Under the pieces are notes generated by a model, which saw nothing but the letters and a program-made list of their open reading frames with translations, was not told where the DNA came from and did no database searches. From Streptomyces canus (GTDB lineage: Bacteria; Actinomycetota; Actinomycetes; Streptomycetales; Streptomycetaceae): a stretch of 64,000 bases of DNA. The stretch's first letter is position 1; every line of letters starts with the position of its first letter. The DNA is taken from assembly GCF_041435015.1 (NCBI RefSeq), contig NZ_CP107989.1, positions 6,820,001 through 6,884,000 of the forward strand, written 5' to 3'. The position numbers and the translations under genes are program-made. Positions 29,580 to 54,232 of this stretch are shown piece after piece.

Positions 29580-29598
29580 CTCCTACGAAACGTAGGAG
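29580..29598. promoter_or_regulatory. BlaI/MecI-type operator 1
   Basis: A perfect palindrome CTCCTACG-AAA-CGTAGGAG. The arms CTCCTAC/GTAGGAG are identical to those of the operator in front of the BlaI-like gene at 52.7 kb. It lies 38 bases upstream of the ATG at 29637, where a bound repressor would block the promoter. Confidence 0.8.
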
Positions 29599-29636
29599 TA
29601 CATGGTTCCGGGGCGCGTGACGACGAAAGGTGCGGG

Positions 29637-31124
29637 ATGGCCGACGGCTCGAACGTCACGATGACCGGTGCCACTCGCACCGGCTTCCCACCGTGGACGG
29701 CCCGTCCTCGGCGCCGGTGGGGCGAATCTTGGCTCGCGGCCGTCGCGGGGGCTTTCACGCTGGCCCAGCTCGTCCTCGTACGACCGGATCTTGGTCTCGG
29801 CTGGGACGAGACGGTCTACGTCAGCCAGGTCAGCGGACAGGTTCCCGCCGCCTTCTTCAGTGCGCCCCGCGCCCGCGGCATCTCTCTGCTTGCCGCGCCG
29901 ATCGCGTCGTGGTCCGACTCCACCGCCCTTCTGAGGGTCTACCTGGCGGTTCTCTCCGGGCTGGGCCTCTACTTCGGCCTGCGCGTCTGGCGAGCCCACG
30001 TCATGCCGCGCGTCCTGGCGCTGGCGGGCGCGCTGTTCGCCTCCCTGTGGGTGACGCTGTTCTACGGCCCGCAGGCCATGCCCAACTACTGGGTCGCCGT
30101 CGGCGCGCTGGCCTGCGTCGGCTCCTTCCTGCGCGTCCGCGCCAACGCAGGGGATCGGGCAGCCTGGTGGGGCGTGCTCGCGGGCGCGGCACTGATGGCG
30201 TGGATGCGCCCGATGGACGCCGTCTACGTGGTGGTCCCCCTGCTCGCTCTCGCCCTGCGCCGCCCCCGCCTGCTCGCCGTACTGGCCGCCGGTCTGCTGG
30301 CCGGCGCTGGTGAGTGGGTGATCGAGGCGTACCTGAGCTACGGGGGCCTTGCGCAACGCCTCTCCGACGCCTCCCGCATCCAGGGCGGCCTCGGCTGGCA
30401 TCTGGCGGTGGTCGACCAGCTGCGCAGTCTCGGCGGGCGTACCCTCTGCCGTCCCTGCACCGGATCGGTCCCCAACGCGCTGGTGACCCTGTGGTGGTTC
30501 GCGCTGCCCGTCCTGGCCGTGCTCGGCGCGCTCACCGCCGTCCGCGCCCGCCGCGCCCTGCCCGTCCTGCTGCCGCTGGCCTGCGCGGTCACGGCCGCCG
30601 TCCCCTACCTGTTCCTCATCGGCTACGCGGCCCCCCGCTTCCTGCTGCCCGCCTACGCCTTGCTCGCTCTCCCCGTCGCCCATGGCCTCGCTCACCTGGT
30701 CAGCGCCCCGACTCGGGGGAGCGCGCGTGCCGTCGCCGTGAGCCTGGTCTCGGCCTGCCTGGCGGCTCATCTGGCCGTGCAGTACGTCGTCCTGGAACAC
30801 ACTCTGCACAGTTCCGCTGCCCACCGTGACAACTGGTCCCGCACCGCCTCAGCCCTGCACACGCTCGGCGTACGGCCCCCGTGCCTGCTCAGCGGCTACG
30901 AGGCCGTGCCCATCGCCTTCTACGCCGGTTGTGGCTCGGCGCAGACCGACGGCCACGACACCAGCATCAGCGCGGCCGCACTGGCCCGGGCCGCCCGCCG
31001 GACCACTGTCGCCGTCCTCGCCCAGCCCGGCGACCGTCCGCCCGGCTACGCGCGCACCTGGTCCATGGAGCGGGCCGGCGTCCTCCACGCCTACGTCGCT
31101 CCCTTCGTCCGGCAGGGGCGGTGA
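29637..31124 (+). CDS. Polytopic GT-C-type glycosyltransferase-like membrane protein
   Basis: A 495-residue membrane protein with about eleven hydrophobic helices. The first outward loop has 'LGWDETVYVSQVSG', the acidic pair typical of GT-C enzymes (ArnT/GT39/GT83-like) that use polyprenyl-phosphate sugars. The C-terminal outward part has cysteines in 'RPPCLLSGYE' and 'YAGCGSAQTDG' that could pair. The donor, sugar and acceptor are unknown. The start has AAAGGTGCGGG ahead. It is coupled to the next gene by GTGA overlap and preceded by a BlaI-type operator. Confidence 0.75.
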   Translation: MADGSNVTMTGATRTGFPPWTARPRRRWGESWLAAVAGAFTLAQLVLVRPDLGLGWDETVYVSQVSGQVPAAFFSAPRARGISLLAAPIASWSDSTALLRVYLAVLSGLGLYFGLRVWRAHVMPRVLALAGALFASLWVTLFYGPQAMPNYWVAVGALACVGSFLRVRANAGDRAAWWGVLAGAALMAWMRPMDAVYVVVPLLALALRRPRLLAVLAAGLLAGAGEWVIEAYLSYGGLAQRLSDASRIQGGLGWHLAVVDQLRSLGGRTLCRPCTGSVPNALVTLWWFALPVLAVLGALTAVRARRALPVLLPLACAVTAAVPYLFLIGYAAPRFLLPAYALLALPVAHGLAHLVSAPTRGSARAVAVSLVSACLAAHLAVQYVVLEHTLHSSAAHRDNWSRTASALHTLGVRPPCLLSGYEAVPIAFYAGCGSAQTDGHDTSISAAALARAARRTTVAVLAQPGDRPPGYARTWSMERAGVLHAYVAPFVRQGR

Positions 31125-32068
31125 CCGTGGCGACGGTGTCCGACAGCGTGACCGTGACCGCGGGCAGGCGCCACTACGTCCGGCTGGGCATCACCCTCGC
31201 GGTGCTCGTCCTCGCCGGCGGCATGCTCGCGGCGCACCGGGCCACCCTCGACAGCGGTACCGACCAACTGGCCGCCGCCGACGGGGAGTGGCTGGTGCTC
31301 GCCTGCTTCGCCACTGTCGCCACGTGGGTGTGCGCGGCTGTGGCGCAGCAGGGGGCGGTCGTCGAGCGGTTGCCGAAGGGACGGCTCGTGGCCGCTCAGT
31401 TCGCGGCGTGCGCCGCCAACCACATCCTGCCCGCAGGGGCCGGGGCGAGCTTGGTCAACCTGCGGTTCCTGACGCGGTGCGGCCTGTCCACCAGGCGCTC
31501 GGCGACCGCGCTGGCCGTGAAGGCGGCTGTCGGCGGGATCGTCCGGTGCGTGCTGGGCGTCGTCCTGCTGGTGGCATCACCGGGCGCTGTCCCACTGTCG
31601 GCACGGGTCCCACACGTGCTGGTCCTGGCGCCGGTGGCGGCGGCAGCCGTCGTGCTGGTGGTGGTGGCCAGCGGTCGGCTCAGGCGGGCGGTGGGGCGAG
31701 CCGTGACCGACGTGCGGGAGGTGCATCGCTCCCGGGGGCGGGCCTGCGCACTGTGGGGCGGCTCGGTCGCGTTCGCGTTGCTGCACGCCGGCGTGGTCGT
31801 GGCCGTCGTCCATGCGCTCGGTCTCGCGTTGCCCACGAGCCACGTGGTGATGGCGTACCTGGTTGCCAGCGGGGCGGCGGCCCTGCTTCCCACGCCCGGT
31901 GGACTGGGGTCGCTGGACGCCGCGCTCGCCTTCGCGCTCACGGCCGCCGGAGCACCGGGGCAGACGGCGATCTCGGCGGTCATCGGCTACCGCCTGCTCA
32001 CCGGATGGCTGCCGATGGCACCGGGACTGCTGGTCCTGGGGTGGCTTGCCCGCCGGTCGGCGCTCTGA
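31121..32068 (+). CDS. YbhN/UPF0104-type (LPG-synthase TM-like) membrane protein
   Basis: A 315-residue protein with about eight helices. Conserved blocks are 'NHILPAGAGASLVNLRFLT' and 'LLPTPGGLGSLDAALAFAL', the PGGLG motif of the lysylphosphatidylglycerol synthase membrane domain and AglD-like proteins. No aminoacyl-transferase domain is present, so a lipid or lipid-linked-sugar flippase or accessory role is more likely than lysyl transfer. The GTG at 31121 overlaps the upstream stop, so expression is tied to the glycosyltransferase. Confidence 0.78.
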   Translation: MTVATVSDSVTVTAGRRHYVRLGITLAVLVLAGGMLAAHRATLDSGTDQLAAADGEWLVLACFATVATWVCAAVAQQGAVVERLPKGRLVAAQFAACAANHILPAGAGASLVNLRFLTRCGLSTRRSATALAVKAAVGGIVRCVLGVVLLVASPGAVPLSARVPHVLVLAPVAAAAVVLVVVASGRLRRAVGRAVTDVREVHRSRGRACALWGGSVAFALLHAGVVVAVVHALGLALPTSHVVMAYLVASGAAALLPTPGGLGSLDAALAFALTAAGAPGQTAISAVIGYRLLTGWLPMAPGLLVLGWLARRSAL

Positions 32069-32074
32069 ACCGGT

Positions 32075-32111
32075 GGCGGTGCTCGCTGCCCCACACATCA
32101 GCAGCACCGCC
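32075..32111. terminator. Possible terminator hairpin
   Basis: GGCGGTGCT pairs with AGCACCGCC across a 19-base loop between convergent genes. There is no T-tract. Confidence 0.5.
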
Positions 32112-32162
32112 TGTGGCGACGTACGTGCTCGACGCTGCGACCTTGAGCAAGTCCTGAACGGC

Positions 32163-32990
32163 TCATGGACGTTTCATCGGCCGCCTTGCCTTGCGTGGCG
32201 ATCCGGTCGGCGCGCCGGGTAGCGGGCGGTGCAGGTGATGGCGGGCGACGAGTTCGAGCGTCACCGCGACCGCGACGGACTGCACTGCCATGAGCGCGAT
32301 CAGGACGAACAACTGCACCGCCCCGGCCATCACGGGACTCGCCCCTGCCATCAGCATGCCGACGAAAGCACCGGGAAGGGTGACCAACCCGACCGTCCGA
32401 GTCTGGTCCAGGCCGGGCAGGAGTGCCTCTGATGCCGCGGGGCGGGCGATCTCCATCCGTGCGTCCCGGTCCAGGAAGCCCAGGGCCATCGCGGCTTCCA
32501 CTTCCCCGTGGCGCTGGGTCAGTTCGTCCAGGGCACGACGTCCGGCAAGGACGGTCACGGTGAGTGCGCCGCCGATGAGGATGCCCGTGATCGGGATCAG
32601 TGCTATGCCTCGCAGCGGGACGAGCCCCGTCAGCAGCAGTGCCGCGACGACCGGCATCACGCCGGCGGCGATCGGGGCGGCCGTGAACCACCAGGTGTGG
32701 TCGCTGGTGATTCTCCGTCCGGCCGTGCGCACCGCCACCGAGAACATGACGACAAGGAACGCGAACAGCCCTGGCACGGACTTGACGGCCCACGCGATGA
32801 CCACCGACACGACGGCCAGCTGGGCTGCGGCCCTCAGTCCGGCGACAAGGATCTCCCGGGCTCGGCTCTTGTACGGGTGCGGGTCGAGATGGAACCGTCC
32901 CGCGACCACCGCCGCCGCCAGGATCAGAGCGGCGAGGAGGACGCCGAGGGTGATGTTGACCGGGACGAGGGATGCCGCACTCGACGTCAC
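32163..32990 (-). CDS. FetB/UPF0014-family ABC-type permease
   Basis: A 275-residue membrane protein with about seven helices. The family core is clear: 'AAQLAVVSVVIAW', 'GRRALDELTQRHGEVEAAMALG', then 'LDQTRTVGLVTLPGAFVGMLMAGASP'. E. coli FetB with ATPase FetA exports iron. No FetA-like ATPase is adjacent, so the partner must be elsewhere or lost. The GTG at 32990 with GGTGGGGAAC upstream was preferred over a longer start at 33038. The C-terminus is very basic. Confidence 0.8.
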   Translation of the reverse strand: MTSSAASLVPVNITLGVLLAALILAAAVVAGRFHLDPHPYKSRAREILVAGLRAAAQLAVVSVVIAWAVKSVPGLFAFLVVMFSVAVRTAGRRITSDHTWWFTAAPIAAGVMPVVAALLLTGLVPLRGIALIPITGILIGGALTVTVLAGRRALDELTQRHGEVEAAMALGFLDRDARMEIARPAASEALLPGLDQTRTVGLVTLPGAFVGMLMAGASPVMAGAVQLFVLIALMAVQSVAVAVTLELVARHHLHRPLPGAPTGSPRKARRPMKRP

Positions 32991-33164
32991 GTTCCCCACC
33001 TGAAGGAGCCGCTGCCTGGGCCGGGTGGTGCCGTGCAATCAGCCAGACCGCGCACCTGTTGCCAGCAAGGCAGTCTACGTCGACGCTGCGCGGGCCGAGC
33101 CCTCGCGATGTGCCGGATGATCACTGGCAGCCGCTCACATCCAGCCGGGCGCCGACGGCCGTTC

Positions 33165-33560
33165 TCAATCCACCTGATCCGGCTGCCGTTCCAGCCTGTA
33201 TCCGTGCCCTCGCAGCGTGGTGATCTCCGGTAGTCGGACAGGACCGCCCCCGGCCTGCACCGCGTCGGTCAGTCTGCGTCGCAGGCCCGCCATCGTCGCG
33301 TCGAGAGTCTTGGTGGGGCCGAACCAGTTCTCGTCCCATACCTCGGCCATCAACGTCTCCCCCGACACCGCCTCGCCGACCCGCTCGGCCAGCACCACGA
33401 GCAGGTCGAACTCTTTGGCCCGCAGGGGGATTTCGACACCGTGCAGCGTGCATCGCCGAGCGGAGAAGTCGACGACCAGATCGCCCAGCCGCACCGGCTT
33501 CCGGACCGGGGCAGCCACTGCCTGCCGCCGCAGATGCGCTCGCAGCCGGGCGAGCAGCAC
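33165..33560 (-). pseudogene. Response-regulator fragment lacking the receiver domain
   Basis: Bases encode 131 residues beginning in the interdomain linker ('LLARLRAHLRR') and then a complete OmpR-type winged helix ('IPLRAKEFDLLVVLAERVG', 'TLDATMAGLRRRL', 'LRGHGYRLE'). The upstream sequence shows no receiver domain or conserved Asp in any frame. It is probably the 3' end of a lost regulator, although an unregulated DNA-binding protein could be made from the GTG at 33560. There is no kinase nearby. Confidence 0.65.
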
Positions 33561-35617: not shown

Positions 35618-35622
35618 CCAGT

Positions 35623-42744: not shown

Positions 42745-42872
42745 GGCGGCCTTCTTCCGTGGCGGCGGAGGGGACGGAGCGGAACGCCGCTATGCAGGAG
42801 CCGTGATCATGAATCGTCATGGCACTCATAGTGCTCGGGTGACGCGGATGGGGCAGCCGATGACGCACGGCA

Positions 42873-42890
42873 GTCAGGATGCGTTCAGGT
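42873..42890 (+). promoter_or_regulatory. Tandem TCAGG-type motif, COG4705 copy 3
   Basis: GTCAGGATGCGTTCAGGT: half-sites GTCAGGAT and TTCAGGT about 11 bases apart, ending 23 bases before the ATG at 42914. A partial copy (GTTCAGGATGCGCTCC) also lies just after this gene, at 43771-43786. Confidence 0.6.
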
Positions 42891-42913
42891 ATCCCGTGGC
42901 ACGGTCGCGCCTC

Positions 42914-43753
42914 ATGACATACGAGACCTCACAGACGCTCGCGCCCTCGGAGGGCGACACCCAGGTGTCGCCCTCCGGTCGCCGACTGGGCTGGAACAAG
43001 GTGCCCGAAGTCACGGCCTACTTCTGGGTCATCAAGGTGCTGTGCACGACGGTCGGCGAGACGGCGGCCGACCTGCTCAACGAGAAGGCCGGTCTCGGCC
43101 TGACCGGTGTGTCGGTGCTGATGAGCGCCCTGCTGGCGGTCGTCCTGGTGGTGCAGTTCCGTACCACCGCCTACCGTGCGGGGGTGTACTGGCTCGCCGT
43201 CGCCCTGATCAGCGTCGTCGGCACGCTGATCAGCGACAACCTCGCCGACAACATGGGCGTACCGCTGGAGGCCAGCACCACCGTCTTCGCGGTCGTCCTG
43301 GCGATCGTCTTCGTGGTCTGGTACCGGCGCGAGCGGACCCTGTCCATCCACCACATCGACACCATGAGCCGCGAGTCCTACTACTGGCTCGCCGTGCTCT
43401 TCACCTTCGCCCTCGGCACCGCGGCCGGTGACCTGGTCTCGGAGCGCATGGACCTGGGCTACTGGCTCTCCGCGGTCCTGTTCGGCCTGGCCATCGCCGC
43501 AGTCGCCCTCGCCCACTTCGAGCTCGGCCTGGACGCGGTGTGGAGCTTCTGGATCGCCTACATCCTCACCCGTCCGCTCGGCGCGTCCATCGGCGACTAC
43601 CTCTCCCAGCCCGGCGGAGACGGCGGCCTGGGCCTGGGCACCGTCATCACCAGCGCGTTGTTCCTCACGGTCATCCTCGGCCTGGTCGTGTACCTCTCGG
43701 TGACCCGCAAGGACGTGGCGCAGCCGCAGCACACCGCCCGAAACGCAGCCTGA
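42914..43753 (+). CDS. COG4705 membrane protein, copy 3
   Basis: A 279-residue paralogue with 'NKVPEVTAYFWVIKVLCTT', 'SYYWLAVLFTFALGTAAGD' and 'FWIAYILTRPLGASIGDY'. It stops shortly after the last helix ('VVYLSVTRKDV'). Copies 1 and 3 look closer to each other than to copy 2, including the 'RERTLSIH' loop. No Shine-Dalgarno precedes the ATG. Function unknown for the whole family; the size and paired helix motifs suggest a transporter or membrane sensor. Confidence 0.82.
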   Translation: MTYETSQTLAPSEGDTQVSPSGRRLGWNKVPEVTAYFWVIKVLCTTVGETAADLLNEKAGLGLTGVSVLMSALLAVVLVVQFRTTAYRAGVYWLAVALISVVGTLISDNLADNMGVPLEASTTVFAVVLAIVFVVWYRRERTLSIHHIDTMSRESYYWLAVLFTFALGTAAGDLVSERMDLGYWLSAVLFGLAIAAVALAHFELGLDAVWSFWIAYILTRPLGASIGDYLSQPGGDGGLGLGTVITSALFLTVILGLVVYLSVTRKDVAQPQHTARNAA

Positions 43754-44433: not shown

Positions 44434-44470
44434 GCATTCATCGAGCCGCTGGCGGGCCGTCTGAATCACG

Positions 44471-45850
44471 TCATCCGGCGGGCAGGTCGACCAGGAAGCG
44501 TGCTCCGGGTGTGTGCTCGGGGTCGTGGGAGACCTCGCCGCCGACGGCGCGGGCCAGGCGCCGCGCGAGCGGCAGTCCCAGGCCCGCCCCGTCGTGCCCG
44601 TCGCCCAAGTCCGCGCGCCGGCCGGGCTGGAAGAGATCGTCGAGGAATTCCTCCGGTACGCCAGGACCGTCGTCGGTGACATCGATGCGGACGCCGCCGC
44701 CGGGCACCTGCCTTGCAGACACGGTCACCGTGGAGCCGGCGTAGCGAGCGGCGTTGGCCAGCAGCGGGCTGACGATGCGTTCGAGAAGGGCGGAGGTGAC
44801 GCCCGCCTCGAACTGCTGGTCCGGCACGTCGAGGGCGGTCTTCAGCTGCTTTCGTGTGTCGAGGTCCTCGACCAGCCGTCGCAGCACGGGAGCGACAGCG
44901 GTGGCACCTATGGTCGTGGTGGTGTTCTGCGCGCCTTCGCGGGCGTCGTTCAACAGCGTGTCGCAGATGGTGCGCATGGACTGGGCGGCCTCCGCGATCA
45001 CCTCGTGGGTGGCTGCGGTCTCGTCGGCCGAGCGCGGGCGGGCCCGCCACCAGTCGAGCTCGGCGACGATCCGGGTCAGCGGGGTGCGCAGTTCGTGGGA
45101 CAACTCCCCGGTCAGCTGCTGCTCGTGGCGCAGCACGGTGCGGATGCGGTCCAGCAGTGCATCCAACGAGGTGCCCAGGCGGGCCAGTTCGGCCGGCTGG
45201 TCCTCGGCGCCGAATCGCTGGTCGGAACCGACGGCGCTCCACTGGGTGGCCTGGTCGGTCATGGTGCGCACGGGGCGCAGCGCCCGTCCGACGGCCAGCC
45301 GCGTCAGCGCGTAGGTGCACGCGAGCATGACAGCGTCCAGGATCAGGGAGCCCGACAGCAGGGTGCCGGCGGAGTTGCGGTAAGGGGCGAGATCCACGGC
45401 CGTGATGACGGTGGCGGTGCTGCGTGGGCCGGACACGGGTTGGGAGCACAGGCGGACGAAACGGGGGTTGCCGGTGTGCACGGTCGCGCAGACCGGCCTG
45501 GCCCGCGCGGCGAGCCGGTCGGCGGCCTGGGTCAGCGCACTGTCGGCCGCGGCGGACGGCGGTTTCTCCAGCAGCCGTGTCCCGGTGTAGATCCACACGT
45601 TCGCGTCGAGCAGGCTGTCGTTGGCGGTCTCCAGGACCCGCACTCGGGGCCCGCTGGTGTCGACGGTGGTGGCGACGGCGGCGGCGCGGTTGCGTAGTTC
45701 GTCGTCGGCCTGGTGCTGGAGGTGCCGGTCCATCGCGGTGTTGAACACGACGGTCAGTACGGTCATCAGGAGCGCGGCGGTGGTCAGCGCCACGAGCGAG
45801 AGCCGACCGCGCAGCGTGCGGGGCGCCAGACGGCGTGCGAGCCGGTTCAT
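44471..45850 (-). CDS. Sensor histidine kinase (system 2)
   Basis: A 459-residue kinase with TM1 'LSLVALTTAALLMTVLTVVF', an outward domain of about 120 residues with cysteines in 'RPVCATVHTGNPRFVRLCSQ' (possible disulfide), TM2 near 'LLSGSLILDAVMLACTYAL', HAMP, 'TGELSHELRTPLTRIVAEL' with the phospho-His, and an ATPase domain ending 'GAGLGLPLARRLARAVGG'. It overlaps its regulator by four bases. It is the last gene of the DedA-PAP2-PAP2-regulator-kinase operon, so it may sense lipid-carrier or envelope status. Confidence 0.92.
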   Translation of the reverse strand: MNRLARRLAPRTLRGRLSLVALTTAALLMTVLTVVFNTAMDRHLQHQADDELRNRAAAVATTVDTSGPRVRVLETANDSLLDANVWIYTGTRLLEKPPSAAADSALTQAADRLAARARPVCATVHTGNPRFVRLCSQPVSGPRSTATVITAVDLAPYRNSAGTLLSGSLILDAVMLACTYALTRLAVGRALRPVRTMTDQATQWSAVGSDQRFGAEDQPAELARLGTSLDALLDRIRTVLRHEQQLTGELSHELRTPLTRIVAELDWWRARPRSADETAATHEVIAEAAQSMRTICDTLLNDAREGAQNTTTTIGATAVAPVLRRLVEDLDTRKQLKTALDVPDQQFEAGVTSALLERIVSPLLANAARYAGSTVTVSARQVPGGGVRIDVTDDGPGVPEEFLDDLFQPGRRADLGDGHDGAGLGLPLARRLARAVGGEVSHDPEHTPGARFLVDLPAG

Positions 45851-46509
45851 GACAGCCGGTGCCCGATCCCGCGTGTCGTGGTGAGGGCGAGACCGCTGCC
45901 CGCTTCGCGCAGCTTGCGGCGCAGTCGGCTCAGATACTGGTCGAGGGTGTTGTCGCTGACCTGGGCGCCGTCCGGCCAGGCGGCCCTGACCAGGTTGCGG
46001 CGGGACACGAGGGTCCCGCCCGCGGCCATGAGCGTGGCCAGCAGACGGAACTCCGTGGGAGACAGGTCGATGTGGTCGTCGCCGACGCGCGCGCTGTGCC
46101 GGGTCGCGTCCAGGACCAGGTCACCGGCGGTGGCCACGGCCGGAGGTGCGGCCCGTTTGAGTGCGGCCCTCAGCCGGGCGACGAGTTCGGCGAGATGGAA
46201 CGGCTTGGGCAGGTAGTCGTCGGCTCCGGCGGAGAACCCGGACAACCGGTCGGTGAGGTGATGGCGGGCCGTCAGGAAGATGATCGGGGCGGCGAACCCG
46301 CCCGCGCGCAGCGCCTGGCAGACGTCCCGGCCGTCCGCGTCGGGCAGCCCGACGTCCAGGACGACGGCCGCGATGTCGTCGGTGGCCAGCCGCAGAGCGG
46401 TGGCGCCGTCGGCGGCGGGCACGGGGTCGAAATCCTCGTCGAGCAGGCCGCGACGCAGCACGTCACGCAGGGCGTGATCGTCCTCAACGACCAGGATCTT
46501 GTGGCGCAT
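45847..46509 (-). CDS. OmpR-family response regulator (system 2)
   Basis: A 220-residue regulator: D52 ('VVLDVGLPDADG'), Lys in 'DYLPKPFHL', and a winged helix with 'IDLSPTEFRLLATLM' and 'SDNTLDQYLSRLRRKL'. The ATG at 46509 has CGGAGGATC directly ahead and overlaps the PAP2 gene end by 26 bases. Its DNA-reading segment resembles that of the 25-kb regulator, so both may bind the same motif. Confidence 0.93.
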   Translation of the reverse strand: MRHKILVVEDDHALRDVLRRGLLDEDFDPVPAADGATALRLATDDIAAVVLDVGLPDADGRDVCQALRAGGFAAPIIFLTARHHLTDRLSGFSAGADDYLPKPFHLAELVARLRAALKRAAPPAVATAGDLVLDATRHSARVGDDHIDLSPTEFRLLATLMAAGGTLVSRRNLVRAAWPDGAQVSDNTLDQYLSRLRRKLREAGSGLALTTTRGIGHRLS

Positions 46510-47194
46510 GATCCTCCGTCGGATTGTCCGGCGCATGGGGCGTACCAGAGAAGAACGATGCGGGCAGCCATCGGGCCATCGCGTACAGGCACACTCCGAG
46601 CCATCCGGTGGCGAACAGCCAGCCGCCGATGACGTCGGTGAACCAGTGCACGCCGAGATAGACCCGGGACAGGCCCACCAGCCCGCCCCAGCACCCGATG
46701 ACGACCCGGAGTGGGGTGGCGCCGTGTGGGGCGCGCAGTGAGACCGTGACGATCAGCAGCCCGGCAGTGAGGGTCGCTGTGGTGGTGTGTCCCGAGGGGA
46801 ACGCCCAGCCGCCCGCGGACGCCGCCCAGTCGGTACGGGCGGGACGCGGCCGCTGGACGATTTCCATCACCCCGTAGCGCAGCGCCTGACCGGCTCCCAG
46901 ACAGGCAAGGCCCAGTGCGGCCGCCCCCATCCGTCGCCGCACGGTTCGTCCCGCGACCACGCCGGCCACCACGGCGAGGATGTAGGGGACGGCACCGCTG
47001 CCGGTATCGGTCACCCCTCGGGCCAGAGCCCCGGCGACGTCCGGCCGATGGCCGAGCGACCAGGTCAGGAAACCGTCGTCCGGCCACAGCTGAGCGCCAT
47101 TCTGGCCGATCACCACTATCGTGAGGACGCCGAACGCCACCCAAGCGCCGAGACCGACCGTCCCAGCCAGGTCGGCGGCGTCGCGCCGCTTCAT
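46484..47194 (-). CDS. PAP2-family membrane phosphatase, second copy
   Basis: A 236-residue polytopic phosphatase with the three acid-phosphatase motifs: 'QRPRPAR' (KxxxxxxRP-like), 'FPSGHTTTAT' (PSGH, catalytic His) and 'SRVYLGVHWFTDVIGG' (SRxxxxxHxxxD). BcrC/PgpB-type members dephosphorylate undecaprenyl pyrophosphate or phosphatidylglycerol phosphate on the outer face. It overlaps the first PAP2 gene by four bases (ATGA). Confidence 0.88.
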   Translation of the reverse strand: MKRRDAADLAGTVGLGAWVAFGVLTIVVIGQNGAQLWPDDGFLTWSLGHRPDVAGALARGVTDTGSGAVPYILAVVAGVVAGRTVRRRMGAAALGLACLGAGQALRYGVMEIVQRPRPARTDWAASAGGWAFPSGHTTTATLTAGLLIVTVSLRAPHGATPLRVVIGCWGGLVGLSRVYLGVHWFTDVIGGWLFATGWLGVCLYAMARWLPASFFSGTPHAPDNPTEDHAPQDPGR

Positions 47195-47790
47195 GGGGCG
47201 CTCAGCAGCCGACGCAGGCGGCCAGAGCCGACCCATCGGTCCCCCGATCGCGACCACCGTCGCAGCACGAGCATCGCCATCAGTGCGACGAGGCCACCGA
47301 CCAGCACGCCTGCCACGACGTCGTGCGGATAGTGCGCGCCGACCCACACCCGCGAGACCGCCATCGCCAGTGCCGCCACGGTCGCGACCGCCCCAAGCCG
47401 AGGCGAGACGAAGAGCAGGGCCACGGCGGCGGCGGCCGCGATCGCCGCGTGGTTGCTGGGGAAGGACCAGTCGCCGGGCGCCGGACACGCCTCCAGGGTC
47501 TTCACCCGAAGGCTCTGGCACGGCCGGTCCTCGCGCACCGCCAGCTTCGTCAGGGCATCCACGCCATACGCGACGACCACGACCACCGGTACGGCCAGCG
47601 CCCTCACCGCCGCCGCATCCCCACCCCGCCGAGCGAACCACCAGCCCACTACCGCGAGCACGGCGAACACCGCGAGCCCGTACGTCGACCAGAACGACAC
47701 CGCTCCGCCCAGCCAGGCCGGCGCATGCCGGGCCAGACGCACCACATCCAGATACGCGGTGCCGTCGACAGACGACCCGTCGAAAGCCAT
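47191..47790 (-). CDS. PAP2-family membrane phosphatase, first copy
   Basis: A 199-residue PAP2 protein with 'VREDRPCQ', 'WSFPSNHAAIAAAAAVA' (PSNH in place of PSGH) and 'SRVWVGAHYPHDVVAG'. The ATG at 47790 has GGGAGGACGCAGG upstream and lies two bases after the DedA stop. Two different PAP2 enzymes in one operon suggests two lipid phosphates or two faces of one recycling path. Confidence 0.88.
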   Translation of the reverse strand: MAFDGSSVDGTAYLDVVRLARHAPAWLGGAVSFWSTYGLAVFAVLAVVGWWFARRGGDAAAVRALAVPVVVVVAYGVDALTKLAVREDRPCQSLRVKTLEACPAPGDWSFPSNHAAIAAAAAVALLFVSPRLGAVATVAALAMAVSRVWVGAHYPHDVVAGVLVGGLVALMAMLVLRRWSRSGDRWVGSGRLRRLLSAP

Positions 47791-47792
47791 GA

Positions 47793-48461
47793 TCACCTGC
47801 GTCCTCCCTCGGGCCGGCCATCCCGCCGAGCCCTGTACACCTCGGCAGCCAGGGGGGTGAGCGACACGAAAATGATCAACGCCACCAGCGGGAGCAGGTA
47901 GCGGTCGACGTTCGGGATCGACAAGCCCAGCGCGTACCCCGCGAGGGTGAGTCCGAGGCTCCACACGAGGCCGCCGACGATCTGCCACAACGTGAACGTG
48001 CGCACCGGTACCTCCAGCGCGCCGGCCATCGGATTGAGTACGGTCCGCACCACTGGCACGAAACGGGCCAGCGTGATCGCCTTCGCGTGTCCGTATCGCT
48101 CCAGCAGTTCCTCGGCGCGTTTCGCACCCTCGCGCAGACGCTGCGAGCGGCTACGGGCCAGCAGTGCTCCACCTGCCTTCCTGCCGAGCACATAGCCGCA
48201 CTGCGCCCCGGCCAGGGCGCCGGCCGCAGCCGCGACCAGGAGCGGTCCCAGCGCCAGGTGCACACGCGACTCCGCCGAGCCCGTGCACAGCAGACCGGCG
48301 GTGAAGAGCAGCGAGTCGCCCGGCAGGAAGAAGCCGACCAGCAGTCCTGTCTCGGCGAACATCACCACCCCGACGCCCAGCACGCCGAACGCCGCCAGCA
48401 GCGAATGAGCGTCCAGTACGTTCACGGCCAGCTGGGATGCCGGATGGATCGGTGTGGTCAT
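47793..48461 (-). CDS. DedA-family membrane protein
   Basis: A 222-residue protein with the DedA core: 'VMFAETGLLVGFFLPGDSLLFTAGLL', 'GYVLGRKAGGALL' and 'ITLARFVPVVRTVLNPMAGALEV'. The functional Arg and acidic residues (E, D, R) are present. Some DedA proteins flip undecaprenyl phosphate back to the cytoplasm. Paired with two PAP2 phosphatases it would complete a lipid-carrier recycling step. First gene of a five-gene operon; a BlaI-type operator stands about 110 bases upstream. Confidence 0.9.
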   Translation of the reverse strand: MTTPIHPASQLAVNVLDAHSLLAAFGVLGVGVVMFAETGLLVGFFLPGDSLLFTAGLLCTGSAESRVHLALGPLLVAAAAGALAGAQCGYVLGRKAGGALLARSRSQRLREGAKRAEELLERYGHAKAITLARFVPVVRTVLNPMAGALEVPVRTFTLWQIVGGLVWSLGLTLAGYALGLSIPNVDRYLLPLVALIIFVSLTPLAAEVYRARRDGRPEGGRR

Positions 48462-48572: not shown

Positions 48573-48585
48573 CTACAAGATGTAG
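48573..48585. promoter_or_regulatory. BlaI/MecI-type operator 2
   Basis: CTACA-AGA-TGTAG, a perfect palindrome matching CTAC-N5-GTAG. It lies between the leftward DedA operon (start 48461) and a rightward hypothetical frame (48673). The arms are shorter than in operators 1 and 4. Confidence 0.65.
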
Positions 48586-48672: not shown

Positions 48673-49191
48673 ATGGCCTTCGTGGTCGCGATCGGTCTGT
48701 TCATCGGGACTCGGGCCACCTGGACCACTGCGATGGGGGGCATCTCCTACCACTTCACCGACGGCAGCGGTCACCTCGGCTGCTACTCCTACGGCAGCCG
48801 GCTGCTCCTGCTCGGTCTGCTCGCCGCCACCCTGCCGTTCGTCCGGCGTCTCGGCCCCGCCCTCACCGTCCTGCCGTGGGTCGCGTTCTACCTCGCCACC
48901 CGCTCCCGCCGCCGCGTTCGCCGCCGCCTGGCAACGGCGCCTTCCCCACGCACCAGGCGTGCGAAGGCAGACGTGGCGGACAGGTTGCTTGCCCCCGCCC
49001 TCGTGTGCGTCGCGGTCACCGCGGCGAGCCCGCCGTCCCTGCGCATGAGCCTCTCGCTGCCCTTCGTTACGCATCACGCGCGCGTGGGTGTCACCGCCAT
49101 TCAAGTGCGGGACGTCAACACCACCAGTACGGCGCTCACCCCGCACTTAGCGAGCCGCACCGGCCAGGGTGCCTCCAACGGTGGACCATAG
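48673..49191 (+). CDS. Possible small membrane protein or remnant
   Basis: An open frame of 172 residues with ATCGAGGG before the ATG. The first half has hydrophobic segments ('MAFVVAIGLFIGTRATW', 'LLLLGLLAATLPFV', 'LTVLPWVAFYLAT'). The second half is low-complexity and not convincing. I recognise no family. The coding start may be real and the 3' half degenerate. It lies 88 bases from BlaI-type operator 2. Confidence 0.35.
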   Translation: MAFVVAIGLFIGTRATWTTAMGGISYHFTDGSGHLGCYSYGSRLLLLGLLAATLPFVRRLGPALTVLPWVAFYLATRSRRRVRRRLATAPSPRTRRAKADVADRLLAPALVCVAVTAASPPSLRMSLSLPFVTHHARVGVTAIQVRDVNTTSTALTPHLASRTGQGASNGGP

Positions 49192-49292
49192 CCTCCGGCC
49201 CCGCAGTGCTTGCTCCGCACGCCTATGCCGAGGACGACGTGAAACGAGAACGCGTTCCGACAGACGGCAGCCGCGCCTTCGTCGTGGACTGA

Positions 49293-50018: not shown

Positions 50019-50019
50019 G

Positions 50020-50355
50020 TCAGCAGCACCCCTTCTCGGCGGCGTCCGGGCAGGTGCGATCGGTCTCGACGGCGACCACTGCGGTGCGCAGGTCATCGAG
50101 CGCGTGGCCGAGCCGTTCGTCGGCGAGCTCGTAGCGGGTACGGCGGCCGTCGGGCACGGTGACGACCAGGCCGCAGTCGCGCAGGCACGCCAGGTGGTTG
50201 GACAGCCGGGTGCGGGAGATTGCGAGCGCGTCAGCGAGGTCGGCGGGGTACGCCGGGGCGTCGCGCAGGGCGAGCAGGATGCGGCAGCGGATGGGGTCGG
50301 CGAGCGCGCGGCCGAACCGGGCCAGCACCTCGATGTCGGAGGCAACAGTCAGCAC
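50020..50355 (-). CDS. ArsR/SmtB-family metal repressor, CmtR-like
   Basis: A 111-residue winged-helix repressor starting 'LTVASDIEVLARFGRALADP'. The recognition region carries 'LSNHLACLRDCGLVV', the Cys pair that corresponds to Cys57/Cys61 of M. tuberculosis CmtR, and the tail 'DRTCPDAAEKGCC' supplies further Cys ligands. CmtR releases DNA on binding Cd or Pb. The GTG at 50355 matches the CmtR N-terminus; a start at 50370 would add five residues. Confidence 0.88.
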   Translation of the reverse strand: MLTVASDIEVLARFGRALADPIRCRILLALRDAPAYPADLADALAISRTRLSNHLACLRDCGLVVTVPDGRRTRYELADERLGHALDDLRTAVVAVETDRTCPDAAEKGCC

Positions 50356-50374
50356 GACACGACAGTACACGTGA

Positions 50375-50388
50375 TCCTGAATTCAGGA
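50375..50388. promoter_or_regulatory. Palindrome upstream of the CmtR-like gene
   Basis: TCCTGAATTCAGGA, a perfect 14-base palindrome 20 bases from the repressor start. A related half TCCTGGAT follows at 50391. It is the best candidate for the autoregulatory operator. Confidence 0.6.
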
Positions 50389-50547
50389 AATCCTGGATCA
50401 ACTCCCCGAGTCAGACATACGTGAACCAGTAGCGAGGGAGGGCATCAGGCGGGCGTACCCGCACAAGCGCGCCTGGCGAAGCCGCAGCAGCTGCCGGCGA
50501 GGCGTGGGTGCCGAGCCCGTACCCCGCCTGTTCGGCGTACGGGCTGT

Positions 50548-51267
50548 TCAGCCGTGGTCGCGCAGCGGACCGACGCCGTAACCCCGTTCCTGACAGGTGT
50601 CGAGGATCCGGGGCAGCGCGCCCAGCGTCGAACGCCAGGCGCCGGGGGCGGAGGTGCAGTCGGAGTCGTGGAGCAGGATCGTGCCGCCGCCGTCCAGGTC
50701 GGCGGTGACGGTGCGGTGGACGGAGTGCGGGGTGGCGCGTGCCGTCCAGTCCTCCCCCCAACAGGTCCACAGCACCGGGGTCAGGTCGAGGCGGCGGGCC
50801 GCGAGGTGGGCCGCGGTGGACATGACGCCGTACGGGGGCCGGAAGAGCGAGGGCTGCCGTCCGGTGATCGCGGCGACGGTGTCGCGGGCCCGGCGGAAGT
50901 CGTCATAGGTGGCGCGCGGGCCACGCAGCAGCAGAGGGCGGTGCAGCCAGCCGTGGACGGCGACCTCGTGGCCGGCCGTGGCGATCTCGCGGACCAGACC
51001 GGGGGAGCGGTGTGCCTCGCTGCCGAGCAGGAAGAACGTGGCGCGCACTCCGCGCCCGGCGAGCAGCCGTAGAAAGTGTGGGGTGGAGCGGGGGTCGGGG
51101 CCGTCGTCGAAGGTCAGGGCGATGTGGTCCGGGCGGCCGCGGCCCGAGAGGCGGGGCATGAGGCGGTTGCGCAGCGGCCCGAAGGTGGAGACCACGGGTG
51201 CGGCGTAGGCGGTGAGGACGGGTACGGCGGCGAGGGCGGCCGTGCGCAGCGTCGGGGCGATGGTCAC
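50548..51267 (-). CDS. NodB-type polysaccharide deacetylase
   Basis: A 239-residue CE4 enzyme with one N-terminal hydrophobic anchor. The motifs are 'HIALTFDDGPDPRSTP' (catalytic Asp and metal Asp), 'HEVAVHGWLHRP' (HxxxH-like metal site), 'FRPPYGVMS' and 'ILLHDSD' near the C-terminus. It would deacetylate an extracellular GlcNAc polymer such as peptidoglycan or an exopolysaccharide. The GTG overlaps the glycosyltransferase stop (GTGA), so both are made together under operator 3. Confidence 0.9.
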   Translation of the reverse strand: MTIAPTLRTAALAAVPVLTAYAAPVVSTFGPLRNRLMPRLSGRGRPDHIALTFDDGPDPRSTPHFLRLLAGRGVRATFFLLGSEAHRSPGLVREIATAGHEVAVHGWLHRPLLLRGPRATYDDFRRARDTVAAITGRQPSLFRPPYGVMSTAAHLAARRLDLTPVLWTCWGEDWTARATPHSVHRTVTADLDGGGTILLHDSDCTSAPGAWRSTLGALPRILDTCQERGYGVGPLRDHG

Positions 51268-52652
51268 GAGTGGTCGCCTTCCGACGGGGAGGTGTGCTCC
51301 CGGGGGAAGCCATCCGGGTCGAGGCGGTGGCTGATGGCGTGGATGAGGTCGGGACCGTCGTACGTAGTGGCCACCCCGGTGGCGACGGCGCCGGCGCACA
51401 CGACGGACGCGAGGACGGCCGTGGCGGCGAGCCGGCGCGTCGTCCGGTGCCGGTGTGCAACCGGGCGAAAACCTCGGTCGGGGACTCCTGACCGGTGCAC
51501 GCGCGCAATCTCGGCTGTTGGGCAGCCGTCGGGGGACTGAGCGAACAGGGCGAATCCCGTTGCCCGTTGCCGGTGTCCGAGGGGGCCGTCGATCAGCTCG
51601 CACAGCACCGCCTTGAGGTCGGGCGGGTCGCGTATCCAGACGGCCGCACCGGCCTCGTCCAAGGCGGCGGCGTTGGTCAGCCCGTGCCCGGGTATGCAGC
51701 GGTAACTGGCGACGGGCAGGCCGCAGGCGAATGCCTCCAGCGAGGTGAGCCCGCCGGCGTTCTGGACGAGGACGTCGGCGGCGTGCATCAGGGAGGGCAT
51801 GTCGTCGACCCAGCCGAAGGCATGGTCGATGCCGTCGGCGCGCAGCTGCTCGGCCAGGGCCTCGTTGCGGCCGCAGACGACGACCGGGACGGCGGCGCCG
51901 CAGTCACGCAGCTCCCGGGCCACCGTACGGACCGGGCCCACCCCCCAGGACCCGGCGACCAGCAGAGCCAGCGGGGCGTGGGACGGCAGCCCGAACCTCT
52001 CCCGGGCGCGGCCACGCCCCCGTGCGTCGCAGGGCCGAAAGCGGGGGTCTGTGACCGGCCCGCGCACTCGCACGTCGCGGGCCCCGGCGGCCCGCGCCTG
52101 GGCGGCGGGCACGGCGTGAGCGGCGAGGTGGACGTCCACACCCGGCGCGACCCACAGCGGATGCACCGAGAAGTCGGTCAGATAGGTGAGGACCGGCACG
52201 GCCAGCCGACCGTCCAGGCGCAGGTTGCCCAGGACCCGGCTGGCCCCGGGATAGGTGGAGACGACGGCACCCGTGCCCGGCGGCAGGGCGCGCAGTACCC
52301 GGTCCTGCGCCGTGCGTAGCAGCGCCCGCGCCACCGGCCCGCCGCCCCCCGCGCGCTCGGTGCTGTTGTAGATCCGCTGGTAGGCCCAGGGGGCCCGTAC
52401 CAGCAGCCGGTGATAGCCCTCCTGGACGGTGCGGCCCAGGTGGGCGGGGAGCAGGTCCAGGAGGTCGAGGCGGTCCACGGCGTAGCCCTGCGCGGTGAGA
52501 CGGCGGGCGAGCTCGGCGGCGGCACCGTCGTGACCGGCTCCGACGCTCGCGGAGACGAGCGCGACCCGTCCGGCGCCGTCTGTCGCGCCGGGCTGCGGGG
52601 GAGCGGCGCCGGTGAGCGGGGATCCGGGCGCCGTGCTCGCGGGGTGGGGCAT
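51264..52652 (-). CDS. MGDG-synthase/MurG-type glycosyltransferase with membrane tail
   Basis: A 462-residue GT-B enzyme. The N-terminal MGDG-synthase signature is 'ALVSASVGAGHDGAAAELA'. The C-terminal UDP-sugar half has 'ADVLVQNAGGLTSLEAFACGLPVASY' and 'GHGLTNAAALDEAG'. Members glycosylate diacylglycerol or lipid carriers. Unusually, after about residue 370 the protein continues with a basic stretch, one hydrophobic helix ('LAATAVLASVVCAGAVATGVA') and an acidic tail, which would anchor it in the membrane. It starts 37 bases from operator 3. Confidence 0.82.
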   Translation of the reverse strand: MPHPASTAPGSPLTGAAPPQPGATDGAGRVALVSASVGAGHDGAAAELARRLTAQGYAVDRLDLLDLLPAHLGRTVQEGYHRLLVRAPWAYQRIYNSTERAGGGGPVARALLRTAQDRVLRALPPGTGAVVSTYPGASRVLGNLRLDGRLAVPVLTYLTDFSVHPLWVAPGVDVHLAAHAVPAAQARAAGARDVRVRGPVTDPRFRPCDARGRGRARERFGLPSHAPLALLVAGSWGVGPVRTVARELRDCGAAVPVVVCGRNEALAEQLRADGIDHAFGWVDDMPSLMHAADVLVQNAGGLTSLEAFACGLPVASYRCIPGHGLTNAAALDEAGAAVWIRDPPDLKAVLCELIDGPLGHRQRATGFALFAQSPDGCPTAEIARVHRSGVPDRGFRPVAHRHRTTRRLAATAVLASVVCAGAVATGVATTYDGPDLIHAISHRLDPDGFPREHTSPSEGDHS

Positions 52653-52688
52653 GGGTCTTCCTCCGCAGGGGACGGGAGCGGCGGAACT

Positions 52689-52701
52689 CTACGAGTTGTA
52701 G
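52689..52701. promoter_or_regulatory. BlaI/MecI-type operator 3
   Basis: CTAC-GAGTT-GTAG, placed 37 bases upstream of the glycosyltransferase/deacetylase operon start. It shares the divergent intergenic region with operator 4. Confidence 0.7.
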
Positions 52702-52730
52702 TAGTTCGCGGTCCGAAGCCCGGAGCATAC

Positions 52731-52749
52731 CTCCTACAACTAGTAGGAG
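52731..52749. promoter_or_regulatory. BlaI/MecI-type operator 4 (autoregulatory)
   Basis: CTCCTAC-AACTA-GTAGGAG, with arms identical to operator 1 at 29.58 kb. It lies 46 bases upstream of the BlaI-like gene. Confidence 0.82.
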
Positions 52750-52794
52750 ATGGCCGGGTAGTCTGTGCGGACGGACGGCGAACGGAGGCATCCG

Positions 52795-53220
52795 GTGCAG
52801 GAACGAGGGGATGGCGGCGCCCGCGAGGCGTCCGGCAGGCGAGCCCGTGGCGAACTGGAGAGCGATGTGCTCGCCGCGCTCTGGGGCGCCGACGGCCCGC
52901 TGACCGCCGGCCAGGTCCGGGAGGCGCTGCCGGGCGACCTGGCCTACACGACCGTCCTGACCATCCTGTCCCGGCTGTACGACAAGGAGATGCTCGTCCG
53001 GCACCGCGAGGGCCGCGGCTACGCGTACGAGCCGGTGCGCGACGAGGCGTCGCACACCGCCCAGCGCATGCGGTCGCTCCTTGAGGGTGGTCCCGACCGC
53101 GAGGCGGTCCTGGCGCGCTTCGTCTCGGAACTGTCCGAGCAGGACGAGCACGTATTGCAACAGCTCCTGTCCGGGCACGACGCTCGCACCGGAGATGACC
53201 GCTCAGCAGGGAGGGCGTAA
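52795..53220 (+). CDS. BlaI/MecI/CopY-family transcriptional repressor
   Basis: A 141-residue winged-helix repressor. 'GELESDVLAALWGADGPLTAGQVREAL' and 'AYTTVLTILSRLYDKEMLVRHREGRGYAYEPV' are the classic penicillinase-repressor DNA-binding core, followed by the dimerisation helices. The GTG at 52795 has CGGAGG ahead of it; an in-frame GTG at 52765 is less well supported. It is co-transcribed with an M56 protease gene four bases later. Induction would be by proteolysis or release of the repressor. Confidence 0.93.
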   Translation: MQERGDGGAREASGRRARGELESDVLAALWGADGPLTAGQVREALPGDLAYTTVLTILSRLYDKEMLVRHREGRGYAYEPVRDEASHTAQRMRSLLEGGPDREAVLARFVSELSEQDEHVLQQLLSGHDARTGDDRSAGRA

Positions 53221-53224
53221 AACC

Positions 53225-54232
53225 GTGCTGTTCAGCGTCTACGTCCCCTTCGCGGTCACGGCTGTGCTCGCCGTGCTCGCGCCCCGACTGGCCCACGTGC
53301 TGCCCCCGCGCCGCGCTGCCTGGGCCCTGGCCTGCGCAGCGCTCGTGACCGCGATCGGCTGGGCGGGGGCACTCGCCCTGCTCGCCTTCACCGGCGTGGC
53401 ACAGATTCCGGAAGTCGCGGAGGAGGGCCGCTGGTCCGTGGCCGCCCTGCAAGCCGAGGATCCGGTCTACCTCGTGGTCGCGGGAGGCAGCGCCCTCATG
53501 CTGGCCGTGGGCGTCGTCTCGCTGGGCGTGGCCGTCGTGAGGCAGGCCCGCCTCTTCGTCCTGGCGCGGCGGGAGTGCGCCCGGCTGCCGGAGGACACGG
53601 AACTGGTCGTGGTCGACGACGACGTCCCGATGGCCTTCGCGTTGCCCGGGTCGCCGGGCCGGATCGTGGTCTCCCGGGCAATGCTGCGCTGTCTCACCGA
53701 CCGCGAGCGCGAGGCCCTCCTCGCACACGAGCGGGCTCACCTGCGCTGCCGCCATCGCCTCTTCCAGATCCTGTGGCGGCTCGCGGCGGCCTTGAACCCG
53801 CTGCTGCGACCGCTGGCCGTCGCGGGCGGCTTCGTCCTGGAACGCTGGGCCGACGAGGAGGCCGCGCAGCGCGTCGGCGACCGAAAGATCGTCGCGCACG
53901 CCGTCGGGCGCGCCGCGCTGGCATCCGCCGGTACCTCATTCCCGGCCGCACTGGCCGCGACCGGCGGGGAAGTGCCGCAACGGGTGCGAGCCCTGCTGGC
54001 CCCGCCGCCCCCGCGCCGGAGCCTGCCCCTGGTCGCGGGCGGCCTCCTGCTCGCCGTGTGCTGCGCGAGCCTCGCCAACGCCGCATCCGACAGCGATCAG
54101 ATGATGGACAGCGCACAGTGCGCGGCGTACGCCGCCACGGCGAGCGCACCGCCGGCCGGAGAACACCGGCACGTGCCCGACTTCTGCTTCGAGGAACACG
54201 ATCGCCGGGAACTTCAGGAGCACCGCCCGTAA
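53225..54232 (+). CDS. M56-family (BlaR1/MecR1-like) membrane metalloprotease
   Basis: A 335-residue membrane protease with about four helices. Zinc motif 'LLAHERAHLRCRHRL' (HExxH) and 'LERWADEEAAQRVGD' with the third ligand Glu. After the last helix ('LVAGGLLLAVCCASLANAA') only about 55 residues remain outside, with cysteines in 'SAQCAAYAATA' and 'PDFCFEEHD'. There is no penicillin-binding sensor domain as in true BlaR1, so the inducing signal is unlikely to be acylation by beta-lactam. GGGAGGG precedes the GTG. Confidence 0.88.
   Translation: MLFSVYVPFAVTAVLAVLAPRLAHVLPPRRAAWALACAALVTAIGWAGALALLAFTGVAQIPEVAEEGRWSVAALQAEDPVYLVVAGGSALMLAVGVVSLGVAVVRQARLFVLARRECARLPEDTELVVVDDDVPMAFALPGSPGRIVVSRAMLRCLTDREREALLAHERAHLRCRHRLFQILWRLAAALNPLLRPLAVAGGFVLERWADEEAAQRVGDRKIVAHAVGRAALASAGTSFPAALAATGGEVPQRVRALLAPPPPRRSLPLVAGGLLLAVCCASLANAASDSDQMMDSAQCAAYAATASAPPAGEHRHVPDFCFEEHDRRELQEHRP

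Follow-up and report, generated by a model that had tools for sequence, protein, structure and literature searches.

Introduction

In the BlaI-BlaR1 and MecI-MecR1 systems, a repressor of the PF03965 family is encoded in one operon with a membrane protease bearing an HExxH motif, a target operon lies divergent from this pair, and the operators are dyads of TAC/GTA half-sites. A passage of PMC3305447 describes the divergon layout of BlaI-BlaR1 and two ways in which the repressor is lost in known systems, i.e., cleavage or, in B. licheniformis, a peptidoglycan-derived dipeptide. Here we analyze a BlaI-type repressor gene, the adjacent membrane metalloprotease gene and four CTAC-N5-GTAG palindromes (N5 being a five-base spacer) in a stretch of 64,000 nucleotides from Streptomyces canus (RefSeq assembly GCF_041435015.1, contig NZ_CP107989.1, positions 6,820,001 to 6,884,000), hereafter the window. 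The system has the features listed above in common with BlaI-BlaR1 and MecI-MecR1, but it has several dispersed target operons, and no β-lactamase or penicillin-binding protein (PBP) target and no PBP sensor domain were found. The spacing also differs, with five or six bases (N5 or N6) between CTAC and GTAG here, whereas the TACA-NN-TGTA of the known systems corresponds to a four-base spacing.

Mycobacterial BlaI (Rv1846c) is likewise actinobacterial and has a regulon wider than one gene, but the targets named in the relevant part of PMC12565901 are blaC, ftsQ and Rv1303, the last two linking it to cell division and ATP synthesis, rather than an envelope-lipid set. CopR-CopY belong to the same superfamily and have a similar operator core (a passage of PMC7253601), but the window repressor scores below the CopY cut-off (TIGR02698, 31.9 versus 121.95) and has no cysteine among its 141 residues, so that it contains no CxC metal motif. 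The target genes resemble the MprF, UgtP-type glucosyltransferase, UppP/BacA and DedA/UptA families, although the window proteins fall below the NCBIfam equivalog cut-offs. We know of no case in which enzymes of the MprF, UgtP, UppP or DedA type form a BlaI regulon. Among the papers listed in searches of the open-licence literature, no title or abstract opening described a BlaI envelope regulon of this kind or a spacer code, a word search of the text of PMC3123327 (Hesketh 2011) found no BlaI, DedA or PAP2, and no operator passage was found in the part of PMC8265638 consulted.

An earlier note on this DNA had proposed that a BlaI-type regulon takes in dispersed genes of the envelope and of lipid carriers. 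Our analysis supports this proposal, each of the four target groups being backed by other genomes, and points to what is probably a real, conserved BlaI-BlaR1-like circuit in which repressor and protease would act as a switch over four envelope operons.

Results

Rare palindromes stand before four operons of the window

The genes and sites concerned are listed below, in window positions.

29580..29598: putative operator O1, CTCCTAC-GAAAC-GTAGGAG, between a DUF347 gene (28660-29544, minus strand) and the GT-C-like gene (29637, plus strand)
29637..31124, plus strand: putative transferase dependent on polyprenyl-phosphate sugars, a polytopic membrane protein called GT-C-like after the names and domains of its homologues
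31121..32068, plus strand: UPF0104/LPG_synthase_TM flippase-like protein, resembling the membrane part of MprF (PF03706, 96.5 bits)
44471..45850, minus strand: histidine kinase, encoded at the end of the DedA operon (PF00512, PF02518)
45847..46509, minus strand: OmpR-type response regulator (PF00072, PF00486)
46484..47194, minus strand: PAP2 phosphatase a (PF01569, 57.6 bits)
47191..47793, minus strand: PAP2 phosphatase b (PF01569, 80 bits)
47793..48461, minus strand: DedA/VTT protein, encoded first in the operon and a putative undecaprenyl-phosphate flippase (PF09335)
48573..48585: putative operator O2, CTAC-AAGAT-GTAG, flanked by DedA and what remains of a second GT-C-like gene
48739..49280, plus strand: decayed remnant of the second GT-C-like gene (tblastn fragments)
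50548..51267, minus strand: CE4 polysaccharide deacetylase with an N-terminal hydrophobic segment (PF01522, 109.2 bits)
51264..52652, minus strand: GT28-type glycosyltransferase, like diacylglycerol glucosyltransferase and monogalactosyldiacylglycerol (MGDG) synthase (PF06925, 28.4 bits, cut-off 25)
52689..52701: putative operator O3, upstream of the GT28-deacetylase operon
52731..52749: putative operator O4, CTCCTAC-AACTA-GTAGGAG, in front of blaI and separated from O3 by 45 bp
52795..53220, plus strand: BlaI-type repressor (PF03965, 82.7 bits, cut-off 22.6)
53225..54232, plus strand: M56/M48-type membrane metalloprotease with HExxH and a cysteine-containing tail (profile scores)

The CTACNNNNNGTAG palindrome occurs exactly four times in the window (29583-29595, 48573-48585, 52689-52701 and 52734-52746), each time where the earlier note had placed it; 100 dinucleotide shuffles of the window gave a mean of 0.14 and a maximum of 2. 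The whole genome of 10,677,318 bases contains 21 copies of CTAC-N5-GTAG, including these four, versus 428 copies of the same pattern read backward as a control, so the palindrome is rare for its composition. Four copies inside 23.2 kb have a Poisson probability of about 2e-7, without correction for the choice of place. The seven-base arms CTCCTAC and GTAGGAG are identical at 29580-29598 and 52731-52749, as had been noticed before. Perfect matches to TCCTAC-N5-GTAGGA number two in the genome, i.e., the first and last palindromes of the window, and a further nine positions, all outside the window, match it with one mismatch. According to rough gene calls, the 17 palindromes outside the window comprise 11 at gene ends (TAG being a stop codon), five that are intergenic and one that is intragenic.

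The sites recur at the same operon starts in other Streptomyces

A scan of named genomes gave 26 BlaI loci, 25 of them from Streptomyces (including S. antibioticus, S. canus, S. noursei, S. hygroscopicus and S. griseofuscus). Genomes (G) and loci (L) are referred to by our own handles where they have to be told apart. The 471.5 kb of the 25 Streptomyces loci contained 59 N5 sites, i.e., about 125 per Mb versus about 2 per Mb in the own genome of the window, and the two loci with no site (L087, L097) were both on short contigs. When spacers of 0-12 bases were scanned in these loci, there were 59 matches for N5, 6 for N6, 33 for N8 and 0-4 for the others, with controls giving 0-1 (GTAG-Nk-CTAC) and 2-16, with a count of 11 at k=5 (CATC-Nk-GATG). 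We rejected N8 as a third spacer; judged by eye, the Streptomyces N8 matches read mostly as the overlap of repeated CTACTAC arms.

Operon starts were then counted in 33 loci (the window, 24 named loci, six further genomes, one plasmid and one relative of 64% identity). A site had to lie within 350 bp upstream, and one between divergent genes counted for both. The set includes closely related strains, so that the counts are not independent; they do not cover L097, a second contig from one of the strains, or L109, from Phycisphaerales (32%). Genes whose start was unplaced (in the families rechecked, GT28 1, deacetylase 3, M56 1, PAP2b 1, kinase 10) and fragments (five of the GT-C-like gene and two, those of the window, of the second GT-C-like gene) were left out. 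An N5 site lay upstream of GT28 in 24/24 cases, blaI in 28/33, DedA in 8/11, PAP2b in 6/13, the response regulator in 6/21 and PAP2a in 1/6, as well as of DUF347b (2/2), DUF347c (1/8), the GT-C-like gene (2/2), the second GT-C-like gene (2/2) and its relative (1/1), and a GT2 gene (1/1). None was found upstream of M56 (0/31), the deacetylase (0/27), ABC2 (0/20), DUF347a (0/13) or the kinase (0/8). Equal frequency of the palindrome at random places, which the earlier note had named as evidence against its proposal, is thus not what we observed; the palindrome is spread unevenly over the genome and recurs at the same operon starts in other species.

GT28 and blaI were transcribed divergently in 14 of 24 loci, and in 13 of these 14 the two operators were separated by 45 bp (70 bp in G068). 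In the remaining ten, GT28 had a site of its own; these include L091, L099 and L107, where blaI lacks one. Across 13 aligned stretches, the CTAC and GTAG columns of O3 and O4 did not vary. Between these two operators, a block at 52714-52730 (CGAAGCCCGGAGCATAC) was alike in 12 of the 13 (L075 differs), and may contain promoter elements.

A site in the position of O2 was also present in L084, L085, L086, L088, G430 and G331 (L085 and G430 are probably one genome), and an O1-type site adjoins the orthologous GT-C-like gene in G430 and G331. All four operator positions were occupied in G430, and those at blaI, DedA and the GT-C-like gene in G331, the arrangement being kept over 22-29 kb. S. canus DSM 40017 and Streptomyces sp. 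DSM 15324 also have the operators at blaI, GT28 and DedA, within stretches that do not include the GT-C-like pair. The blaI module also occurs on a plasmid: on the 639-kb Streptomyces plasmid NZ_CP109461.1 (L193), a class-I-like blaI-M56 pair (class I being that of the window repressor) is divergent from a GT (66% identity)-deacetylase-GT4-UppP operon, with three N5 sites.

Searches by protein similarity gave a consistent picture. Among the 30 best-scoring homologues of the GT-C-like protein, the window's included, 15 had N5 (at -54 to -66 in nine of them) and none N6; the flippase-like gene adjoined 13, and 11 were divergent from a BlaI of 46-51% identity, ten of those with N5. For 30 GT28 homologues, again including that of the window, N5 was found in 9/10 at 60% identity or more and in 0/20 at 43% or less.

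Several features lie beside these operons. In a close relative, G141 (L058, 19312-19561), a PAP2b remnant and an operator stand directly beside blaI, which looks like a deletion; this stretch had no GT28, deacetylase or DedA match. At 25060-26972, 27053-29544 and 42848-43753, the window also contains three DUF347 genes and a second two-component pair, and relatives of both adjoin class-I blaI in other species. O1 is common to DUF347b and the GT-C-like gene.

The repressor pair and its predicted targets

The repressor scores well above its family cut-off, and a dyad with TAC/GTA half-sites (O4) precedes its own gene. Its closest solved relative is 2g9w, named "conserved hypothetical protein", which we take to be mycobacterial BlaI (Rv1846c). 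The neighbouring gene, called M56 in the earlier note, does encode an HExxH protease, but the M56 profile reached 21.7 bits versus a cut-off of 31, and M48 scored best (47.3 bits); the plasmid relative is called M56 by NCBI. The protease has 335 residues from the called start and ends, by eye, about 45-50 residues past its last hydrophobic segment. In the full-length proteases compared, HExxH was kept as HERAH (HERTH in L070), with HERAP only in a broken copy (L156). The C-terminal tails contained recurring cysteines in class I and were short and without cysteines in class II, the N6 class described below.

A penicillin-binding domain was absent from the protease in the domain scan, as were PBPs from its structure matches, and β-lactam sensing is unlikely because no penicillin-sensor domain was found. 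Neither a β-lactamase nor a low-affinity PBP target was present among the window proteins scanned, which bears out the earlier observation on β-lactamases; all five PF13354 matches of the genome fell beyond the window, at distances of 116 kb or more from blaI, and other β-lactamase families were searched for among the scanned window proteins.

Of the pair described earlier as a GT-C transferase and a flippase-like protein, the second was confirmed by its LPG_synthase_TM domain and scored 70.3 bits with NF033480, below the cut-off of 600, whereas the first had no Pfam or NCBIfam match. We label it GT-C-like because of the names and domains of its homologues, at least two of the 120 listed being named "Glycosyltransferase RgtA/B/C/D-like", a few carrying PF09913 and one PF03901. 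AlphaFold models of GT-C-like proteins, from alignments of three and four sequences, had mean predicted local distance difference test scores of 42.8 and 36.9, too poor for use. The second GT-C-like gene survives in the window as tblastn fragments of 67% and 58% identity (residues 316-482 and 479-512 of 545), and is intact beside the same operator in L084 and L085.

For the DedA operon, Pfam confirmed DedA, two PAP2 proteins, a response regulator and a histidine kinase. The DedA protein matched the VTT domain, and scored 113.7 versus 236 with the DedA model and 36.6 versus 250 with the UptA model. The closest NCBIfam model to PAP2b was an undecaprenyl-diphosphatase (NF047884, 61.9 versus a cut-off of 250). 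The third operon, read earlier as an MGDG/MurG-type transferase with a deacetylase, does consist of an MGDG_synth/GT28-like gene (PF06925) followed by a CE4 gene (PF01522). The transferase scored 98.6 bits with PRK13609 (UgtP/diglucosyl-diacylglycerol synthase), below the equivalog cut-off of 500, and its closest solved structures (9wde, 4wyi) are a processive diacylglycerol β-glucosyltransferase and an MGDG synthase. In the deacetylase we read by eye TFDDGP, RPPYG and LLHD, presumably the CE4 motifs, and its solved relatives are chitin, xylan and peptidoglycan deacetylases.

Other genes were preceded by N5 elsewhere. These were BacA-ChrB-MFS in L149, a small open frame (78 and 94 residues) with a lysyl-phosphatidylglycerol synthase gene (606 and 599 residues) in L144 and L147, and, in L104, a GT2 gene of the polyprenyl-phosphate-sugar-synthase type, divergent from a GT-C-like gene; L143-L147 had been chosen via the N5 pattern itself and are hence biased.

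Such target genes bear on whether the regulon, if real, might serve development or wall growth rather than antibiotic defence. The link of mycobacterial BlaI to ftsQ and Rv1303 (from the same part of PMC12565901), the lack of a β-lactamase nearby, and the wide spread of BlaI paralogues in Streptomyces (122 of 150 genomes at E 1e-15 or better) would all suit such a role. We nevertheless consider it unlikely, because the recurring BacA/UppP, PAP2, DedA, lysyl-phosphatidylglycerol synthase and MprF-like flippase genes point to defence of the lipid carrier and of surface charge.

Operator spacing follows the class of BlaI

A BlaI of at least 70% identity was present in 9 of 149 other Streptomyces genomes, the next best being 62%. 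In a promoter survey, in which three loci were counted twice and one BlaI fragment was included, N5 was present at 29 of 36 blaI genes of at least 70% identity (one also with N6) and neither spacer at seven; one relative of 64% also had N5. Among 58 blaI genes below 61.5%, 47 had N6 (one also with N5), two had N5 only and nine neither. A de-duplicated BlaI tree of 92 rows and few columns contained a class-I clade of 30 with support of 91/80 (25 N5, one both, four none); the class-I-like L091 and L107, which have no site, branched outside this clade at an open fork. There were two further clades, both of 27 rows, the first with N6 in 21 and no site in six, the second with N6 in 25, both in one and no site in one. 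The paralogues of these two clades, taken from the top of the similarity list and not randomly, therefore had N6 in 46/54 and N5 alone in none. A third class (L143, L146) had N5 and clustered with one of the N6 clades (88/89). Classes I and II are told apart by BlaI positions 86-87, which are SH in the former and GL in the latter, and by position 55. We rejected these positions as specificity residues; descent and function are inseparable here, and the class-III rows fit neither pattern.

The genome of the window itself contains an N6 counterpart at about 10.040-10.048 Mb (L155), with DedA (80%), PAP2b, PAP2a, a response regulator (80%), a kinase (69%) and DUF347, divergent from a BlaI (58%)-M56 pair with two N6 sites between. 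In nine N6-class loci, N6 was found at 9/9 blaI and 4/4 DedA genes, and N5 at none. The class is not uniform, because the stretches of L157, L158 and L163 had no DedA match. At two DedA starts, in G331 and L090, both an N5 and an N6 site were present. An N6 doublet before a fatty-acid desaturase gene (G000:C1:1680508-1680536) was set aside as probably belonging to another regulator.

Among 29 loci from a class-wide search, N5 was present in seven, N6 in none and N8 in 14, while 12 had no CTAC/GTAG pair spaced by 2-9 bases. Nine loci (L164, L166, L168, L169, L172, L174, L178, L184, L185) carried paired CTAC-N8-GTAG 19 bp apart upstream of blaI. In these other actinomycetes the paired N8 may represent yet another arrangement of operators, or N5 dyads read out of register; some look by eye like TACTAC-N5-GTCGTA, although these were not counted.

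One reading of these results, on which we are evenly divided, is that BlaI-M56 envelope circuits have been duplicated into a family in Streptomyces, with the length of the operator spacer insulating one circuit from another. Class I (N5) would act on GT28-deacetylase, class II (N6) on DedA-PAP2-PAP2-two-component, and class III (N5, with other flanks and close doublets) on the GT-C-like/flippase pair. In the present genome, the class-I repressor would have captured all three kinds of operon via N5, while the paralogous DedA operon stayed with the N6 repressor. If so, a change of one base in the spacing would rewire the regulon, and dual-spacer promoters such as those of DedA in G331 and L090 would be meeting points of two circuits.

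The classes also bear on how many of the four sites belong to the island BlaI, which might control just the blaI-GT28 divergon, with O1 and O2 being relics or sites of other BlaI proteins (O1 of a lost class-III repressor, O2 of the N6-type one at 10.05 Mb). Elsewhere the GT-C-like gene does adjoin a class-III BlaI of its own (in the 11 of 30 cases above, ten with N5) and the DedA operon an N6-type BlaI, with N6 at all four N6-class copies; O2 has short arms, and relics exist, one site in G033 (L148 at 1856) lying away from any operon start. However, the other PF03965 matches of this genome are one of the N6 type and two (L019, L020) that the tree places outside class III, plus a weak fifth (L022) that is unplaced. 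O1 and O4 share their seven-base arms, which are retained in G430 and G331, and O2 is an N5 site retained in six relatives (L085 and G430 again looking like one genome), whereas the nine N6-class loci show no N5. We therefore regard this smaller regulon as distinctly unlikely. That the palindromes are structural hairpins or sites of another regulator, such as the response regulator of the DedA operon, is very improbable: two-component genes are often near the sites, and N5 lies upstream of 6/21 response-regulator genes (at least some shared with a divergent blaI), but spacer length tracks the class of BlaI with or without a two-component pair in the locus, the half-sites match the TACA/TGTA-type operators of BlaI, MecI and CopY (the same passage of PMC7253601), and the sites precede whole operons rather than genes within them (M56, deacetylase).

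Discussion

The circuit that we favor, with BlaI and its protease over four operons, has several observations against it. An exact N5 site within 350 bp was missing at five of the 33 blaI genes (L087, L091, L094, L099, L107); DedA was under N6 instead in L100 and L103 and had neither spacer in L104; and the arms of O2 are only 4 bp. No sigma-70-like promoter was found at the blaI/GT28 divergon in a promoter scan, and the enzyme functions assigned to the window proteins come from models scoring below equivalog cut-offs. The 19-bp palindrome was no commoner across the genus than its backward control, with 18 matches in 15 of 392 genomes versus 25 in 25 genomes, so that its evidence is one of placement rather than abundance. 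Thirteen of the 18 lay in a class-I BlaI island (two each in the window, G430 and G331, and one each in G375, G381, G033, G440, G148, G080 and G442), and five lay away from any such island. One island site, that in G033 mentioned above, is not at an operon start. Finally, neighboring genes were scanned at five of the 17 palindromes found elsewhere in the genome (L001, L002, L006, L010, L012), none being an envelope gene of the window's kind; with this share of the neighbors covered, there is room for targets off the island.

What can be read directly from the DNA is the presence of the operators, how rare they are, their retention at the same operons across genomes and their match to the class of repressor. 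From these we infer repressor binding, repression, proteolytic signalling, an inducer and the enzyme products as follows. BlaI would bind the CTAC-N5-GTAG dyads at the blaI-M56, GT28-deacetylase, DedA-PAP2-PAP2-response regulator-kinase and GT-C-like/flippase-like operons, and keep all of them off. Its membrane metalloprotease partner would sense a disturbance of the envelope and the repressor would be inactivated, so that the four operons open together; the mode of repressor loss is left open because the known precedents, cleavage and dipeptide, differ. The PAP2 and DedA products would restore or recycle undecaprenyl (polyprenyl) phosphate, while glycosyl transfer, deacetylation and MprF-like flipping would alter the outer face of the membrane or wall. 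The most likely role would be protection against antibiotics that attack the lipid carrier or are cationic. The term envelope-stress circuit, used in the earlier note, is thus a supported inference and not a result.

A part of PMC5882110 reports that S. coelicolor lacking polyprenol phosphate mannose synthase or protein O-mannosyl transferase is more susceptible to antibiotics, above all to wall-active drugs. This fits the envelope theme of the regulon. Beyond what had been noticed in the window, the analysis adds a paralogous N6 module in the same genome, a third class of BlaI beside the GT-C-like pair elsewhere, and BacA, lysyl-phosphatidylglycerol synthase, GT2 and a second GT-C-like family as further genes preceded by N5.

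If the circuit is as we propose, the family known from textbooks as a β-lactam switch would have other neighbouring targets in this genome and in the related loci, and BlaI-M56 pairs would gain a concrete set of targets, in the recycling of lipid carriers and the modification of glycolipids and wall, and a testable class of signal. The natural contrast of N5 and N6, with paralogous operons in one genome, would offer a handle on how repressors are kept separate and how regulons merge. These targets may further reveal how soil bacteria that make antibiotics shield their lipid carriers.

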